From assembly GCA_001314805.1 (NCBI GenBank), contig LJSY01000021.1, positions 1-64,000 on the forward strand: 64,000 nucleotides of DNA. The letters are read 5' to 3'. Positions 58 to 10,179 of this stretch are shown in pieces. Within the stretch, counting starts at the first letter, position 1; each line of letters begins with the position of its first letter. This stretch comes from Rhodobacteraceae bacterium HLUCCO18. Lineage in GTDB: Bacteria; Pseudomonadota; Alphaproteobacteria; Rhodobacterales; Rhodobacteraceae. The position numbers and the translations under genes were made by a program. The notes beneath the pieces are model-generated. The model was not told the origin of the DNA, did no database searches, and saw only the letters and a program-made list of their open reading frames with translations.

Positions 58-987
58 TCAGCTCAAAAATGGCAGGAGGGGGTCGACGTTGCGCTTACGA
101 CGATCCATCCATGCACAAATAATCAAAGTGAGGACGAAAGCTGCTTGATTGATAAGAGTCTGCTTCCAGTCACTTTCGGTTTCGCCCGAATGAATTGCCA
201 CCTTTAGGCTGGCAAATCCTTGCTCTGCCTCCACAGAAACAAACTGAGCAAGTGCAAAGACTCCCACCATTGCAAACAAGACGAGCCCAAAGCATCGCCT
301 CCAAAAGAAAGCTGGGTTATGAAGAAGCATCAACACGAACGACCCAAAACCAGTCATGGCGGTTGCTGCCAGGCGGGCATCAAGAGTCCAAGAGGCCGGG
401 ACAAGAAGTAGCCATGTTATGAGACACGATGCCAATCCCACTCCAGCAGAAATCATGAACCATGCAAAGGAATTATTACGTCTCGCAACTTCTCCAGCAG
501 CAATTCGTTCGCGATGGCGCGCTGTCATCTCTATTTGGAGGTTTTGTTGAAATTCTGGGTTGTCTGTCCAAATGCGGTTGAACTCGTGTCCCGGAACTTT
601 AAGGGCGGCGACTTCATCTGTCAGTGCGTATACGCTTGCCGATCTTTTTCTTCCGAGCTCGATCGCTGCCATCTCGCCGACTTGGTTCGGAGCAACGCGC
701 TTTGAACCAAGCTGGCGCCGGAAAACGATATCCACCTCACCGGACAGAAGGAAATATACATCATTGTCCTGACCGCCTTCATGTATCAAGCAGTCGCCCT
801 TGCGAAAAAACACAACCTCGCCATGATTTATTAATCCGTCCAAAATGGACAAGTTGCCTCGAATTGCCCGGTTCTCACGAAGCGTTTGCCTGACAAGGTC
901 AGCCGCGCTGTCCCCGGAGAACAGCCCAGGCAGTTTGGCTTCATTTTCCCGCCCAATAATTTTCTTTAGCTTCGCCGACCAATACAT
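58..987 (-). CDS. Cyclic-nucleotide-binding four-helix membrane protein, probable Pycsar-type effector
   Basis: The protein has 309 residues. Residues about 45-150 form a cyclic-nucleotide-binding domain; the phosphate-binding cassette is seen as GEMAAIE...RSASV at about 104-119. Four hydrophobic segments follow at about 174-196, 206-226, 232-252 and 279-294, ending in a basic tail. A CNB domain joined to membrane helices is the layout of Pycsar PycTM effectors, which disrupt the inner membrane when they bind cCMP or cUMP; that role is inferred here. The start codon lies inside the 3' end of the WYL gene (22-base overlap), so the two are probably translationally coupled. The divergent cyclase would supply the ligand. 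Composition is AT-richer than the core genes. It could instead be an ordinary cNMP-gated membrane sensor; the neighbours argue against that. Confidence 0.8.
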   Translation of the reverse strand: MYWSAKLKKIIGRENEAKLPGLFSGDSAADLVRQTLRENRAIRGNLSILDGLINHGEVVFFRKGDCLIHEGGQDNDVYFLLSGEVDIVFRRQLGSKRVAPNQVGEMAAIELGRKRSASVYALTDEVAALKVPGHEFNRIWTDNPEFQQNLQIEMTARHRERIAAGEVARRNNSFAWFMISAGVGLASCLITWLLLVPASWTLDARLAATAMTGFGSFVLMLLHNPAFFWRRCFGLVLFAMVGVFALAQFVSVEAEQGFASLKVAIHSGETESDWKQTLINQAAFVLTLIICAWMDRRKRNVDPLLPFLS

Positions 988-1841
988 TCGTCTACTTCTT
1001 CCAGATTTTTGATACAGAGTGAAAAGCTACTCTTGTTGCGGATCATGCCTTCTTCAGTTTCGTGAGGGTTAAATCCATAAAAGCGCAGGTAGTAAAACAG
1101 CATCGCTTGGCGCACTTTTAGCAAGAGCTCTCCGCTGCTCATGTTATATTCAATCTCCAGACGTTCGCGCTGCCTATCACTGAGAGCTGGATCAGACTGC
1201 AAGCGTAAATCTACGATATTCGACCACTCTTCGTCTCTTGGAGGCTCTTGATCGTTACCTTTCTTGGTCGCAATTTTTTCAATGCGCGAAAGTACAAAGT
1301 CTGAATGGCGGTTCTTGTCCCCGTCGAAAGCCCGCATGTGCCAGCGGTGGCCATCGCTGGCAATCGCATGCGGGTATAGGCGACGGGGAGAATCCGACTC
1401 TGAACTTAAAGAATCATACATGACCTCTACGCAGTGGCGATCACGAATTGCCCGGAGCACAGTCTTCAGGGTAACGGGATCGATCTTGCGCGAAGAGGCC
1501 ACCACCGCGTCGAATTGAGGGACACTTGCAGGCCATATTTCATCAGCGGCGCGGTAGCCGTGATGCAGCATCTCCAAGTGTTGAAGGTACTCTGCCGCCT
1601 CTCCTTCGACGAAGGCCGGGCGAAAGTTGGACCGAGCTACGTATGTTCTCTGGCGCGGATCGTACGCCATGTTCTTCGGCACCAAGTCGAGGTAGGAAGT
1701 GAGGTCCAGCGTTGCTTGCTGTAGGGAGATTTCGAACTTATCTTTGAGAAGCTTCCGTCCGACCGTACCCTCCCACATGAGCTGGAACTCAATAAATTCA
1801 TAGCGTTTTCGTTGGCTTGGCTTGATGGTCTCGTGCTTCAT
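966..1841 (-). CDS. WYL-domain transcriptional regulator (BrxR/CapW-like)
   Basis: This is a three-part regulator: an N-terminal winged helix-turn-helix (about residues 10-80 of the 291-residue form), a central WYL domain with the typical run DGHRWHMRAFDGD followed by DFVLSRI, and a C-terminal WCX-like domain. I chose the ATG at 1841 because AGGACAAGG lies just upstream; the track's ATG at 1874 has no ribosome binding site and sits on the -35 box of the divergent promoter. BrxR and CapW proteins of this layout repress phage-defence operons by binding palindromes in their promoters. Here the gene lies between the effector and the cyclase, and a palindrome overlaps the cyclase promoter. The effector gene overlaps its 3' end. 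Confidence 0.85.
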   Translation of the reverse strand: MKHETIKPSQRKRYEFIEFQLMWEGTVGRKLLKDKFEISLQQATLDLTSYLDLVPKNMAYDPRQRTYVARSNFRPAFVEGEAAEYLQHLEMLHHGYRAADEIWPASVPQFDAVVASSRKIDPVTLKTVLRAIRDRHCVEVMYDSLSSESDSPRRLYPHAIASDGHRWHMRAFDGDKNRHSDFVLSRIEKIATKKGNDQEPPRDEEWSNIVDLRLQSDPALSDRQRERLEIEYNMSSGELLLKVRQAMLFYYLRFYGFNPHETEEGMIRNKSSFSLCIKNLEEVDECIGRRS

Positions 1842-1875
1842 GGTGGCCTTGTCCTCCCTCCGAAAGACTAGCATA

Positions 1876-1970: not shown

Positions 1971-3572
1971 ATGGCCTGGAACGAAGCAACAGCGCTTGCG
2001 CGCATCAACAAGCTGAAGGGGGAGGCTCCGGATTTCGACGTTCAGCGTTTTGAAGATTACAAGCGTCTGTATGAGGCCGACATGGCGATCCGTGCAGCGA
2101 GAGATCAGCCCACCACGCCGCCGCTGTTCAGCTTGCCAAGGGGCAAGGCCGTGGTGGTTGACACCGTGCAAATCTACATCGCGATCACCAACTATGACGA
2201 CTTTCGCCTTGAGGAAGGCCGCGAGACGGAAGCCTCGCACGAACGCGCCATGCGGCTCTTGCACCTCTACTACAGCGCGGCTGACCGGGCGATCGAGGCA
2301 TCCGCAGCGCAGCGCGTGGATTTCCATAGCGGCCGCGTTCACGCCGTTGTGCTGGAGCGCGGAAAGCAGGGTGTCAGCCGCGACACTGTAGCTGAGGCCC
2401 TCGCTTTCGTTGATGACTTCAAGCGGGTTGCCGACGCGGCGAACCGCGAGCTTGCCAAGAGCGAGTTCACCGCAGAATTTCGAATCGGCATCGACGTGGG
2501 CACTTGCGTCGCCATCAACAACGGAACGGGCTGCGAACAGGAACCCATGTTCCTTGGCAGCGCTGCCAATCACGCCGCGAAACTGGCCTTCGGCAAAGAG
2601 CCAGGCGTCTTTGTTTCTGACCGCGTGCGGGCGCTTCTCAACCTCCAAGAGTTCGGTGTAATCAGCGAATTTGTGGGCCTCTCCGAGACCGATATTGCCG
2701 TGAATGCAGCGCGCCAGGACGCAGGCGGGCATCTGGTGTTCGGCGTTCAGGATCGCCAGGCTTACACGCAGGATTTGGTGGCCAACTGGAAAGATGAAAT
2801 CCGGCGTGGTGAGTTTCCGAACTTCACCGACCCTAGCTTCAGCTTCTCTCACAGGGAGCCGCCGCTCCGCGAGATCGATTATGCTGAGCTTTCGCCAAGC
2901 CGCTCGATCCGCATGCCCTTGGTCTCAATGTATGCCGACCTCTCCGGGTACACCGATTACATCGATAAAGCTGTCGCGTCTGGAGGAATTCGTGAAGCAG
3001 TCCGCGCGCTTCACGTGATCCGGCAAGAGTTCCAGAACGTGGTGGAGAAGGATTTCGGCGGTCGGAAAGTCAGGTTCATCGGAGACTGCATCCATGCACT
3101 CATCGCCGAAGGAACCCGCACCGAGACCGATGAACGCAAAACTGTATCCTCGGCAGTGCAGTGTGCTGGCGGTCTTCATTCGTCATTCGGTCTGTGCAAG
3201 CTCGTTCTTGGCAACCTAAATAGTCTGGGACTGGCCATCGGTCTGGAGCTAGGGCCGACCCCGATTTCCCGGATCGGTATCCGCGGGGATCGGTCCGTGC
3301 GTGCGGCATCCAGCATCGCAACCACGCTCTCGGAGCAGATGCAGCGCGAATGCAAGGACAACGGCGTCAAACTTGGCCATCGCGCCCTGCGCGTTGCTCC
3401 TGTGGCGCTAGAAGACCTGCTGGATAAGGACGGATATGCCGCCAGTATGGACTATGACGATGTGGCCGTCTGCCTGTCGGTTGTTCCGGCGCAGGTTTCC
3501 AGCCCGAATTACGCCAGAGCGCACGTTCCTAGCCAGTCCCCTCAGCCTCGGGCACATTTCAAGCCCGAATGA
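1971..3572 (+). CDS. Tandem class III nucleotide cyclase, probable Pycsar-type cyclase
   Basis: The protein has 533 residues and two cyclase homology domains. Domain 2 (about 312-500) has both metal aspartates, in YADLSGYT (D323) and VRFIGDC (D372), but its transition-state segment reads SVRAASS, without the usual Asn. Domain 1 (about 58-240) has Arg in place of the second metal Asp (HSGRVHAVV, R122) but keeps LGSAANHAAK, with N200 and K204 where Asn and Arg normally sit. The two halves would make one composite active site, as in mammalian C1/C2 cyclases. AAAGG precedes the ATG. The next gene overlaps by ATGA. The linkage to a CNB-membrane protein supports a Pycsar-like role; the product (cCMP, cUMP, cAMP or cGMP) cannot be read from sequence. 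Confidence 0.82.
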   Translation: MAWNEATALARINKLKGEAPDFDVQRFEDYKRLYEADMAIRAARDQPTTPPLFSLPRGKAVVVDTVQIYIAITNYDDFRLEEGRETEASHERAMRLLHLYYSAADRAIEASAAQRVDFHSGRVHAVVLERGKQGVSRDTVAEALAFVDDFKRVADAANRELAKSEFTAEFRIGIDVGTCVAINNGTGCEQEPMFLGSAANHAAKLAFGKEPGVFVSDRVRALLNLQEFGVISEFVGLSETDIAVNAARQDAGGHLVFGVQDRQAYTQDLVANWKDEIRRGEFPNFTDPSFSFSHREPPLREIDYAELSPSRSIRMPLVSMYADLSGYTDYIDKAVASGGIREAVRALHVIRQEFQNVVEKDFGGRKVRFIGDCIHALIAEGTRTETDERKTVSSAVQCAGGLHSSFGLCKLVLGNLNSLGLAIGLELGPTPISRIGIRGDRSVRAASSIATTLSEQMQRECKDNGVKLGHRALRVAPVALEDLLDKDGYAASMDYDDVAVCLSVVPAQVSSPNYARAHVPSQSPQPRAHFKPE

Positions 3573-4363
3573 GCGGACTCAACCAACTACTCCAGACCGT
3601 TCCGCATTGGGCGAGTATCGAGGACAAGGAACAGGTGGCGGCGACCGTGTTAGTCTCGCCGCCTGGCGCCCGTGGGCTGAACTCGGGCGGGTTCTGGCTG
3701 ACGCTTGAGGCTTCAAAGCATGGTGGCGTTGCTGTCAAAGAGGTGCAGGATAAGCGCCAACTTCCTGAGTTTTGTCTCGAACGCCACATCAATTCTGACA
3801 GCACATTCTGCGTTTTCTTCCGTTCCGAATATCCGCTGGAGGACTCAGAGGCCGCCAAGACATGGTGGTCTTACCTAGGAATTTACCTCAGCAACCAGCT
3901 CTATGCACAAAGACGAGGCATTTGGCCGCTAGGTTCCGGCCTGAGCCACGGCGAAGCGGCGCATGTTCAGGTCGCCATGGAAGCTCTGGCCGAGCCTTTG
4001 GGATGGAAGGACGATCTGTGGCTTGCGATGTTTCGCGGCAAAGGGTGGCTGGCCAAACCCTTGCCACGCATATCCAGGCAGCGCGACCGCGTCTTGAATG
4101 CGCGCTCGCCCTGTCCACGAGGTTGCACGTGGAAACATAAACTCTTGCGTAAAGAGTCGTGCAGGACTCCCTCTTGCCTTTCAGGATGCAATCGGCTTCA
4201 TAAGCCGATCTTGCGGGCCGAGTGCCCGAATAGAACAACTATCGAGGAATTGGTTTTGCATGAACATGAGCGGCAACGTATGGAATCGGAAATTATTGAC
4301 GATCTGAGAAAGGAAGGAAAAGTTTGCTGCGGCACGATGGAACGCTGCCCGCTAAAATCATAA
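3569..4363 (+). CDS. E2-like (ubiquitin-conjugating fold) protein with cysteine-rich tail
   Basis: The protein has 264 residues. The N-terminal part (about 1-165) resembles prokaryotic E2-like domains. It has an HxN...C signature, HINSDSTFC (H73, N75, C81), matching the HPN...C of E2 enzymes, then a Trp-rich helix and IWPLGSGLSHG. The C-terminal part (178-264) carries nine cysteines in pairs (CPRGC, CRTPSCLSGC, KVCCGTMERC), probably zinc-binding and typical of E2-associated cysteine-rich proteins. The start overlaps the cyclase stop (ATGA), so the two are made together. In type II CBASS an E2-like protein primes the nucleotidyltransferase by conjugating its C-terminus. A similar service to the cyclase is inferred, although the cyclase ends in KPE rather than Gly or Ala. 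No E1 or JAB gene is present. Confidence 0.7.
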   Translation: MSGLNQLLQTVPHWASIEDKEQVAATVLVSPPGARGLNSGGFWLTLEASKHGGVAVKEVQDKRQLPEFCLERHINSDSTFCVFFRSEYPLEDSEAAKTWWSYLGIYLSNQLYAQRRGIWPLGSGLSHGEAAHVQVAMEALAEPLGWKDDLWLAMFRGKGWLAKPLPRISRQRDRVLNARSPCPRGCTWKHKLLRKESCRTPSCLSGCNRLHKPILRAECPNRTTIEELVLHEHERQRMESEIIDDLRKEGKVCCGTMERCPLKS

Positions 4364-4822: not shown

Positions 4823-4842
4823 CCGGTTGCATGCGCAACCGG
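4823..4842 (+). promoter_or_regulatory. Perfect hairpin just upstream of the ardC ribosome binding site
   Basis: CCGGTTGC-ATGC-GCAACCGG is an 8-base-pair stem with a 4-base loop. It ends about 10 bases before the AAGGAG of ardC. It could be an operator or an RNA structure that limits ardC translation. Confidence 0.45.
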
Positions 4843-4863
4843 CTAAGCAAGGAGAAAAAGCCA

Positions 4864-5775
4864 ATGAAAAAAGACATTTATCAGAAAGTCACCGACAAGA
4901 TTATTGCCGATCTGGAGCAAGGGCAGCTCACATGGCTGAAGCCATGGAGCGCCGGAAACATGGACGGACGGATCACCAAGCCCCTGCGGCACAATGGCAT
5001 GCCCTACAGCGGGATAAACGTCCTGATGCTTTGGGGCGCAACTCAAGAGGCGGGATATCTCTCCCCGTTCTGGATGACGTTCAAACAGGCCAAGGAATTC
5101 GGCGCGCATGTGCGCAAGGGCGAGCGCGGCGAAACCGTTGTCTACGCCAGCACCATCACCAAGGCCGAGGAACAGGACGACGGCAGCGAGAACGAGCGCA
5201 AGATACCGTTCCTGAAACAGTACACCGTTTTCAACGTCGAGCAGGTGGAAGGACTGCCCGAACATTTCTACACCAAGCCTGAACCGATCATCGATCCGTC
5301 GCAGCGCATCGATCATGCAGAAGGGTTCTTTGCCGCAACAGGCGCGGACATTCGCCACGGCGGGAACAGCGCCCACTATAACGGCGGCAGCGATCATGTG
5401 CAGATGCCGTTTTTCGAGAGCTTCCGTAGCCCGGAAAGCTACTACGCCACGCTGGCGCATGAACTGACCCACTGGACGAAGCACAAGAGCCGCCTTGACC
5501 GCGAATTCGGGCGCAAGCGCTGGGGCGATGAAGGCTACGCCAGAGAGGAACTGGTCGCAGAACTTGGCGCGGCATTCTTGTGCGCCGATCTGGAGCTGAC
5601 GCCCGAGCCGGGCAGCGATCATGCAGCCTATATCCAAAGCTGGCTGAAGGTCCTGAGCGAAGATAAGCGGGCGATCTTCAGCGCCGCAGCGCACGCGCAG
5701 CGCGCCGCAGATTACCTGCACAGCCTCCAGACCAAACACGATCAGCAGCCCCAAGCAGAAGGAGTCGCCGCGTAA
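4864..5775 (+). CDS. ardC: ArdC-like antirestriction / zincin protein
   Basis: The protein has 303 residues from the ATG at 4864, which has AAGGAG nine bases upstream; the track start at 4831 lies inside a hairpin. The N-terminal half is the DUF1738/ArcC-like ssDNA-binding domain (MKKDIYQKVTDKIIADLE..., W-L-K-P-W). The C-terminal half is a zinc metallopeptidase-like domain with HELTH (H199, E200, H203) and a downstream EELVAELGAAFL supplying the third ligand. ArdC proteins of conjugative plasmids protect incoming DNA from restriction. Here it leads a plus-strand group of small genes in a mobilisation module, in keeping with early expression after transfer. Confidence 0.88.
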   Translation: MKKDIYQKVTDKIIADLEQGQLTWLKPWSAGNMDGRITKPLRHNGMPYSGINVLMLWGATQEAGYLSPFWMTFKQAKEFGAHVRKGERGETVVYASTITKAEEQDDGSENERKIPFLKQYTVFNVEQVEGLPEHFYTKPEPIIDPSQRIDHAEGFFAATGADIRHGGNSAHYNGGSDHVQMPFFESFRSPESYYATLAHELTHWTKHKSRLDREFGRKRWGDEGYAREELVAELGAAFLCADLELTPEPGSDHAAYIQSWLKVLSEDKRAIFSAAAHAQRAADYLHSLQTKHDQQPQAEGVAA

Positions 5776-8473: not shown

Positions 8474-9769
8474 TTAATTTGGCTCAATCCCACGGTGACG
8501 CGGGCGCTCGCGCTCTGCGCGGCGTTCGGGCTGCGGCTGCGGATTCCTGTCCGGCACGCGGCGCAGTTCCATGGCCCGCGCGACATCACGGTTCAGCGCC
8601 TCGATGGAGCGCTGCTGCTTTTCCTTCGCGGCTGTGATCTGTCGTTGCAGTGTCCGGCGTTCGGAAAGCTGGCGCTGGATGATCTCGTGCTTTTCGTTTC
8701 GGTCACGCTGCTGCGCACGCGCCATGTCGGCTTCGTTTTCCTGCCTGATCTTCCTGTTCTTGCCGGTAACCCAGCCCCAGAGGCCGCGAATGCCCTTCGG
8801 CGTTCGCTCAGCGCGCCTCCGCTCTTCGGCCAGCCAGCGCTGCTCTTGTTGCTGGCGGAGCTGGGCGCGCAGGTGACGGTGGCGCTGCACCATCTGGTCA
8901 CGCTGGAATTTCGCGGCGAGGTTCTGTTTCTCGGCGAGCGCTTCGGCCTCTTTCGCCCAGACTTTGAGCTTGGGCGTCATCCGCTCGCCGATGTAAGCCT
9001 TGGCCTGATCGGTCGATTTCAGCTTGCCGGGATCGCCGAGACGGGCTTGCATTGCCTTGGTCTTCGCGCCGGTGGCCCGAGACAAGGAATAGACTTCGCC
9101 CCGCCAGTCCACCGCGACATAGCCGCGCCGGTCGCCTCTGGCGAGGATGTAGCCCCGTTCCTTGAGAGCACTCTCAAAAGCCTGGCGATTATCAGAGGAA
9201 TCCCAACAGGAACGGAACATTTCTTTCAGGGCCTTCGGGTCTTGCCGCGTGCGCCGGGCTTGCTGCCATTCCTCCAGCGTGAAGCCGCGCGGATCACGCG
9301 CGCCCCGGTCCTTAAAGCCTTTTGGCATCTCCCAGCCATGTTCGCGGTAGAGCTCGCGGGCGATACCGTTCAGCGCGCGTTTGTAATGCGGCAGGTTGAT
9401 CGCCTTCATCTCTTCGCCGTCGATCCGGCTCCAGACGGCGTGGGCGTGCCTGCGGCCTTCCTTTTCGTGGAAGACAATGGCGCGCGGCTGGCCCTCAAGA
9501 CCAAGCTCGCCCTCGATCCGGCCTATGGCCGCCTCGAACACTTCAGCGCGGACGCTTTCGTTCTGGGGCGGGTTCAGGCTCAGCGAGAACAGGTAGTTCT
9601 TGCAGCGCGTGCCCTTGGCGATGGCCTCGCTTTCCTGCATCGCCCCATGCAAGTCATCGGCGGCGAAGCCGCGCAGGTCGTGAAGCTCGATATGTTCGTT
9701 TTCCCGGCCCTTCATGAGATGATTGGCCAGCTCGCGCCCGTTCCCGCGCTCATTGCCCTTCAGGATCAT
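8474..9769 (-). CDS. Relaxase / mobilisation nuclease
   Basis: The protein has 431 residues. The N-terminal relaxase domain shows the metal-binding histidine motif FHEKEGRRHAHAVWSRID (H101, H108, H110) and the preceding RCKNYLFSLSLNPP strand seen in VirD2/MobA-type relaxases. The C-terminal half is a long, Arg/Gln-rich coiled region. The protein nicks oriT and pilots the single strand into a recipient through a helper type IV system; no such secretion genes are in the window. No obvious catalytic tyrosine is present near the N-terminus (the usual place reads ELANHLMKG), so the nucleophile is unclear. The start overlaps the mobC stop (ATGA). Confidence 0.87.
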   Translation of the reverse strand: MILKGNERGNGRELANHLMKGRENEHIELHDLRGFAADDLHGAMQESEAIAKGTRCKNYLFSLSLNPPQNESVRAEVFEAAIGRIEGELGLEGQPRAIVFHEKEGRRHAHAVWSRIDGEEMKAINLPHYKRALNGIARELYREHGWEMPKGFKDRGARDPRGFTLEEWQQARRTRQDPKALKEMFRSCWDSSDNRQAFESALKERGYILARGDRRGYVAVDWRGEVYSLSRATGAKTKAMQARLGDPGKLKSTDQAKAYIGERMTPKLKVWAKEAEALAEKQNLAAKFQRDQMVQRHRHLRAQLRQQQEQRWLAEERRRAERTPKGIRGLWGWVTGKNRKIRQENEADMARAQQRDRNEKHEIIQRQLSERRTLQRQITAAKEKQQRSIEALNRDVARAMELRRVPDRNPQPQPERRAERERPRHRGIEPN

Positions 9770-10179
9770 GACGGCCCTCCGTCCCTGCCGAGCGCGCGCA
9801 GCAACTCACCGCGAAGCGCCATCACTTCGCGGCAAGCGTTTTTTAGTTCGTTTTCAGTTTCGGGGGTGACCGGCAGCGAGCCGGTGTTCACAGCGCGGGC
9901 GAGCTGGTTCAGGTTGTTGGACAGGCGTGACTGACCGAGTGAAGCCAGCACGCGGCCCAGAGCCTTGTGGTCTTCCACCGGCCTGGTATTGCGGCGGCGC
10001 ACCTGCGACAGGTCGCCCTCAAACAGCACGGCCTTGATATAGGCCCCGAGCGGAACGCCGTTCGCGGCAGCCTCCAGCCGCGCCCGCTCTTCAAACGTCA
10101 GCCGCAGAGAAAACGGCGCTTCCCGCTTTTTCTTGCCGCTACCGGCTATCTTGTTGAAATCAGGTCGCAATGTCATCAT
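9766..10179 (-). CDS. mobC: MobC-like relaxosome accessory protein
   Basis: This 137-residue protein has the MobC layout: a basic N-terminus, a ribbon-helix-helix-like core (FSLRLTFEERARLEAAANGVPLGAYIKAVLF) and the typical SNNLNQLARAVNTG motif that marks plasmid mobilisation relaxosome proteins. MobC binds oriT and opens the DNA for the relaxase. It is the first gene of the minus-strand mobilisation operon and overlaps the relaxase gene by ATGA. Two ATG codons lie in tandem at the start; either could be used. Confidence 0.87.
   Translation of the reverse strand: MMTLRPDFNKIAGSGKKKREAPFSLRLTFEERARLEAAANGVPLGAYIKAVLFEGDLSQVRRRNTRPVEDHKALGRVLASLGQSRLSNNLNQLARAVNTGSLPVTPETENELKNACREVMALRGELLRALGRDGGPS

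Follow-up and report, generated by a model that had tools for sequence, protein, structure and literature searches.

It is likely, judging from gene content and sequence comparison, that the locus described here is an anti-phage Pycsar locus in which the cyclase is under the control of a dedicated, stand-alone E2 that would conjugate this PycC-type cyclase without an E1. CBASS provides known examples of immune cyclases under ubiquitin-like control, and the E2 and cysteine-rich domains, the PADLOC models, Pycsar and type II-short CBASS are all already known. Here, the same two kinds of conjugation module turn out to be obligate partners of an unrelated cyclase family, and near the cyclase C-terminus lies a short tag that tracks the module and not the cyclase. 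The trigger of Pycsar is poorly understood, and the pairing with an E2 supplies a concrete, testable activation step. Throughout, the window is the whole stretch of DNA that was analysed, 64,000 nt in length.

Gene content of the locus

Table 1. Genes and sequence elements of the locus, in window coordinates
Feature	Position	Strand	Remarks
Pycsar effector	58..987	-	cNMP-binding domain and hydrophobic (transmembrane) C-terminal region
WYL-domain protein, likely transcriptional regulator	966..1874	-	Divergent from the cyclase; Pfam WYL 48 bits
PycC-type class III cyclase, 533 aa	1971..3572	+	Two cyclase-like domains; PaPycC (PDB 6YII) type
Second, upstream copy of the tag, R516-A517-H518	3516..3524	+
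Cyclase C-terminal tag, R527-A528-H529, then FKPE	3549..3557	+	Proposed E2 recognition/processing site
E2 gene, 264 aa	3569..4363	+	E2-ntca at residues 46-120, then E2-Crich at residues 202-262; no fused E1
E2 active-site motif HINSDSTFC, H73 to C81	3785..3811	+	H-x-[NQ]-x5-C
KVCCGTMERC, E2 residues 251-260	4319..4348	+	Cys-rich tail

The start of the E2 ORF overlaps the stop of the cyclase ORF by 4 bp, an overlap that a sequence-only reading of this DNA had already reported. The E2 is translationally coupled to PycC. The divergent effector matches Pfam cNMP_binding (44 bits) and the PADLOC models Effector PDLC00730 (497 bits) and PycTIR (224 bits), has hydrophobic peaks at residues 173-202 and 226-254, and provides the linked cyclic-nucleotide-responsive effector that Pycsar requires. 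WYL homologues are present in 26 of the 90 loci searched. On gene content, the locus is a Pycsar and not a CBASS locus, because its cyclase is of the class III PycC type and is accompanied by a cNMP-binding effector and a WYL gene. No match to an E1 or a JAB protein was found among the ORFs of the window. The sequence-only reading had proposed an E2-like protein coupled to a nucleotide cyclase, by comparison with type II CBASS. The coupling of an E2 to an adjoining cyclase stands, but that cyclase is a class III enzyme rather than a CBASS-type nucleotidyltransferase, and a lone E2 beside a Pycsar cyclase does not amount to a full type II system.

The same gene order occurs on plasmids of Sulfitobacter, Roseovarius and Falsihalocynthiibacter, with conjugation genes adjoining in three of the four cases. 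Downstream in the window, an ArdC-type anti-restriction protein (Pfam) is encoded at 4831-5775 (+), and the region at 8474-10179 (-) holds ORFs that resemble, by eye, a relaxase and a small MobC-like protein; together, these three kinds of ORF suggest a mobilizable element.

The E2 protein

The E2-like ORF, picked out initially by its HINSDSTFC motif, is real and well above chance. It matches Pfam E2-ntca at 62.5 bits (cut-off 27.5) and then E2-Crich at 54.0 bits (cut-off 27), and the PADLOC E2 model PDLC00878 at 462 bits across its full length. With both domains above the curated cut-offs, it is a member of PF20298 (E2-ntca) and PF20272 (E2-Crich), Pfam families that are already catalogued, as is the PADLOC E2 model, and that are named without a demonstrated function.

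The initial assignment had been staked on the conservation of C81 and on an E2 fold. C81 is invariant in an alignment of 77 E2 sequences, as are E58, P66, C69, R72, H73, W99, Q110, H127, A130, C253, C254 and C260; position N75 is mostly N or Q. In loci L012-L090, C81 conservation is partly selected, since the patterns used to collect them contain the active site or the CCG tail; it was therefore rechecked on E2s reached via the neighbouring PycC and not via an E2 sequence pattern, and there, too, C81 and the RH-x7-C arrangement are kept. The paired cysteines that had been remarked upon at the end of the protein fall in the E2-Crich match, and this tail (C253, C254 and C260, with C182 and C219) is probably metal-binding.

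The AlphaFold2 model of the E2 has a pLDDT of 93.1 and a pTM of 0.87. When it was compared with the PDB by Foldseek, all 50 matches listed were E2/UBC enzymes or their complexes, and all were weak: the best listed match is Rad6b (2ybf; E 0.015, probability 0.92), with none at E <= 0.001. A PDB sequence search with the window E2 returned no relative of solved structure. The model supports an E2 fold that is present but diverged. With the E2/UBC superfamily, the window E2 shares this predicted UBC-like fold, the conserved cysteine and an upstream H-x-N, and it is predicted to form a thioester at the cysteine. On an Acinetobacter plasmid (L096:5514-6271), the E2 and the Cys-rich domain lie in two overlapping frames, which may be a natural split or a frameshift.

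The cyclase and its partnership with E2

The cyclase matches the PADLOC PycC model at 592.8 bits and Pfam Guanylate_cyc, and phmmer gives 8.2e-70 against PaPycC (6yii_A). The catalytic-type aspartates D323 and D372 are invariant in 61 relatives. The putative product is cUMP or cCMP, and the system would protect against phage. The AlphaFold2 model (pLDDT 90.9) is confident to about residue 500 and disordered thereafter; pLDDT is below 50 at residues 507-524, disorder is predicted for the final ~25 residues, and the tail is thus predicted to be accessible. As had been noted from the sequence, the cyclase ends in KPE and not in Gly or Ala. The full ending is ...RAHFKPE, with RAH doubled (516-518, 527-529), and an RAH-type tag occurs twice in 28 of 95 PycC tails.

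A PycC of the window type is found in all 90 loci of a set gathered with E2 queries or with the window's own E2, directly upstream of the E2 and mostly with a 4-bp overlap. In the reverse search, each of the 28 plasmid records found by PycC alone has an E2, which is stand-alone in 23 and E1-fused in five. Across these records, the searches show an obligate partnership between window-type PycC and E2. Among the five PycC loci with an E1-fused (Cap2-like) protein, three also have a JAB (Cap3-like) gene (Mesorhizobium, Cupriavidus and Sphingobium baderi), and two, from Agrobacterium, are without JAB. When the Cap2-like partner of PycC is compared with the Cap2 found beside DncV-like CD-NTases, identity is 34-36% across about 96% of the Cap2-like protein. 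A PycC tree puts the JAB pair in one place and the Agrobacterium E1 pair in another, both among E2-only cyclases, and the tail is changed in each. IMG/VR yielded no confirmed phage-encoded match for PycC or E2, INPHARED phages no PycC match, and complete E. coli genomes no DNA similarity to the PaPycC-E2 pair.

Several of these loci have features of their own. In Pseudomonas aeruginosa p382, the E2 directly behind PaPycC (L010:4815-5588) is unannotated in the record, which makes it easy to overlook that the crystallised PaPycC has this partner; the E2 directly behind PycC in Xanthomonas euvesicatoria (L099:5530-6350) is unannotated as well. A second PycC-like cyclase, single-domain and of ~232 aa, is encoded at L003:829-1521, L006:2248-2946, L035:747-1445 and L057:1352-2050, and in about 20 other E2-PycC loci. 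In L003 and L006 it adjoins a cNMP-binding or TIR effector, giving a two-cyclase Pycsar arrangement; in Agrobacterium (L097/L106) a fusion of a cNMP-binding domain and a cyclase lies upstream instead of a second single-domain cyclase.

A C-terminal tag that follows the E2 type

The motif R[PAS][HYF], placed 1-12 residues from the end, is present in 52 of 65 non-redundant E2-only PycC tails; shuffled tails give 2.4 on average, and none of 2000 shuffles gave more than 11. A looser form, [PAS][HYFW], is present in all 66 non-redundant E2-only PycCs, later finds having been added to the set. The same PycC set had supplied the pattern, which was widened from [HYF] to [HYFW] upon seeing the CBASS tails, and sequences seen later are the fairer test. 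In all eight later-seen CBASS cyclases with a lone SEC-C-type E2 behind them, KPW, SPW or RPH stands 2-5 residues before the end, the single class III cyclase with a SEC-C-type E2 (Chryseobacterium plasmid L118) ends in RPWLKRS, and two further PycCs, both tagged, have the tails RPYAESR and RPHAQR. The tag is absent from all seven CD-NTases with Cap2, which end without exception in Gly or Ala, from all four PycCs with Cap2, three of which (with Cap2 and JAB) end in G-F-[SA] and the Agrobacterium one in ..RHA, and from four cyclases without a neighbouring E2. Tagged later-seen sequences (11/11) and controls (0/15) differ with a Fisher p of about 1e-7, a value made optimistic by the relatedness of the sequences.

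Within the sequences compared, these counts show the tag going with the type of E2 rather than with the cyclase fold, across two unrelated cyclase superfamilies, and the simplest reading is therefore that the E2 handles the cyclase tail. The tag would then be a sequence rule for E2 action without an E1. A terminal Gly or Ala, found in 8 of 66 E2-only PycC tails, was rejected as the mark of the substrate in E2-only systems. The idea that the tag is a by-product of conserved cyclase structure was also rejected, since the tail is disordered, the linkers before the tags are variable, and the tag is absent from PycCs with Cap2.

The tag is not universal: a third, smaller CBASS E2 family goes with other tails (NTFFG/NQFYG). 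Small E2-like proteins with HVY...LCLYLP lie behind SmCdnG-like CD-NTases at L122:2210-2740, L124:2217-2714 and L125:2213-2680, and the CD-NTase tails there read NTFFG[DR] or NQFYGD, a third pairing of E2 and tail. On the Chryseobacterium plasmid (L118:895-3016), PycTM, a different class III cyclase and the SEC-C-type E2, which is like that of type II-short CBASS, occur together: a second, distinct case of a class III cyclase paired with an E2.

Proposed mechanism and alternatives

For the KPE ending, the sequence-only reading had offered two explanations: that conjugation works differently, or that the target is another protein. The first explains the ending best, given the RAH tag before FKPE. 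The second is the less likely, because E2-only cyclases mostly carry R-[PAS]-[HYF] and the cyclases of E1-fused partners end in Gly/Ala or G-F-[SA].

In the mechanism proposed here, C81 of the E2 would, without an E1, attack the tag in the disordered PycC tail. The last cyclase residues would be removed and the aromatic residue would become the donor, as the position of Y405 in a bacterial cGAS suggests if that protein is SmCdnG; by analogy, the donor here would be H529 (or H518), with FKPE released. C81 would hold the processed tail as a thioester and pass PycC to a lysine, which may belong to a second PycC molecule. This conjugation would raise cUMP/cCMP output, and the cNMP-binding membrane effector would then kill the infected cell. 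These elements are guesses: which bond is cut, what the acceptor is, that conjugation activates instead of restraining, which nucleotide is produced, and what the doubled RAH does. The E1-free chemistry is modelled by analogy on one published CBASS system, as other papers summarize it, and the PycC tail might serve for docking and not be the substrate.

An ordinary E2, charged in trans by a cellular E1-like enzyme of the MoeB/ThiF type, might conjugate PycC instead, with the tag serving only as a docking or processing signal. The predicted UBC-like fold, the H-x-N...C site and the existence of E1-fused versions of the E2-PycC partnership agree with this, but it is unlikely: cyclases with E1 partners have the Gly/Ala or G-F-[SA] ends that E1 chemistry needs, whereas the E2-only tails mostly lack a final Gly or Ala and are marked by another tag, and no E1 was found in the window. 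It is similarly improbable that the E2 is a non-covalent or protease-like regulator, which would bind and/or cleave the PycC tail and so lift autoinhibition without ligation to a lysine. A disordered tail with a conserved tag would suit such a regulator, and doubled tags could be two cleavage sites; however, ligation is reported for the related CBASS system, the protein has the fold and active site of an enzyme that conjugates, and where this kind of cyclase has a different partner, that partner is a complete E1-E2 conjugation machinery. That the E2 acts on another protein, of phage or host, with PycC merely a regulator or neighbour, is very improbable: CBASS with Cap2 does join the cyclase to other proteins such as PspA (PMC11153139), but there too the cyclase is the donor, and covariation of the tag with E2 type in two cyclase superfamilies points to the cyclase tail as the recognized piece.

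Comparison with known systems

The window shares with Pycsar (PycC clade A, PaPycC, with PycTIR or PycTM effectors) the cyclase family, the kinds of effector and the linkage to mobile elements, and the same E2 directly follows the PaPycC gene. PMC11224242 describes Pycsar as cyclase and receptor only, with the E2 unmentioned.

With type II-short CBASS (a CD-NTase and a single E2, as in Serratia), the window shares a lone E2 after the cyclase with no E1 or JAB, an H-x-N...C-like site, a Cys-rich C-terminus and an aromatic/His tag near the cyclase C-terminus, the last being a criterion from the present analysis and not a published one. It differs in its cyclase, a class III PycC and not a CD-NTase (cGAS/DncV-like), and in the end of its E2, which is E2-Crich where that of type II-short CBASS is SEC-C-like. 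The tag is mostly R-[PA]-[HY] in Pycsar and K-P-W in type II-short CBASS, though RPH occurs in L132. For CBASS with only an E2, conjugation of cyclase to cyclase is proposed as the activating step in PMC11153139. PMC12135389, crediting Yan et al. 2024, gives 'cGASylation, Y405, E2, promotes cGAS activation' for a bacterial cGAS. SmCdnG in the PDB (8hsb) is 407 residues long; if it is the bacterial cGAS with Y405, that tyrosine would be third from the end, matching the Tyr of the tail NQFYGD in its relative at L122.

Counterparts of the type II CBASS proteins Cap2 and Cap3, namely Cap2-like (E2-E1) and Cap3-like (JAB) proteins, occupy the same place beside related PycCs (L094, L095 and L105). 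The window differs from type II CBASS in having neither E1 nor JAB, and in a cyclase that ends in KPE and not in Gly or Ala. In the literature searched, key subscription papers apart, there is no description of an E2, Cap2 or Cap3 acting in Pycsar, or of a tail tag common to CBASS and Pycsar.

A wider proposal, for and against which the case seems evenly balanced, is that E2-only modules are portable, E1-independent cyclase ligases. The E2 would cleave a [KR]-[PA]-[aromatic/His] tag lying 1-12 residues from the end of the adjoining immune cyclase and transfer the cyclase via the aromatic residue or His. The same module would have moved between CBASS, with its CD-NTases, and Pycsar, with its class III cyclases, and Pycsar would have complete short (E2) and long (Cap2/Cap3) branches. 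The findings suggest that nucleotide-signalling immunity uses conjugation as a general and transferable means of activation.

In two Bradyrhizobium loci (L048:3-1908 and L058:2-1980), an E2-only PycC locus has Cap2-like and JAB genes lying a few kb upstream, as if the long and short versions stood side by side; in L058 these genes adjoin a cNMP/TIR-type effector.
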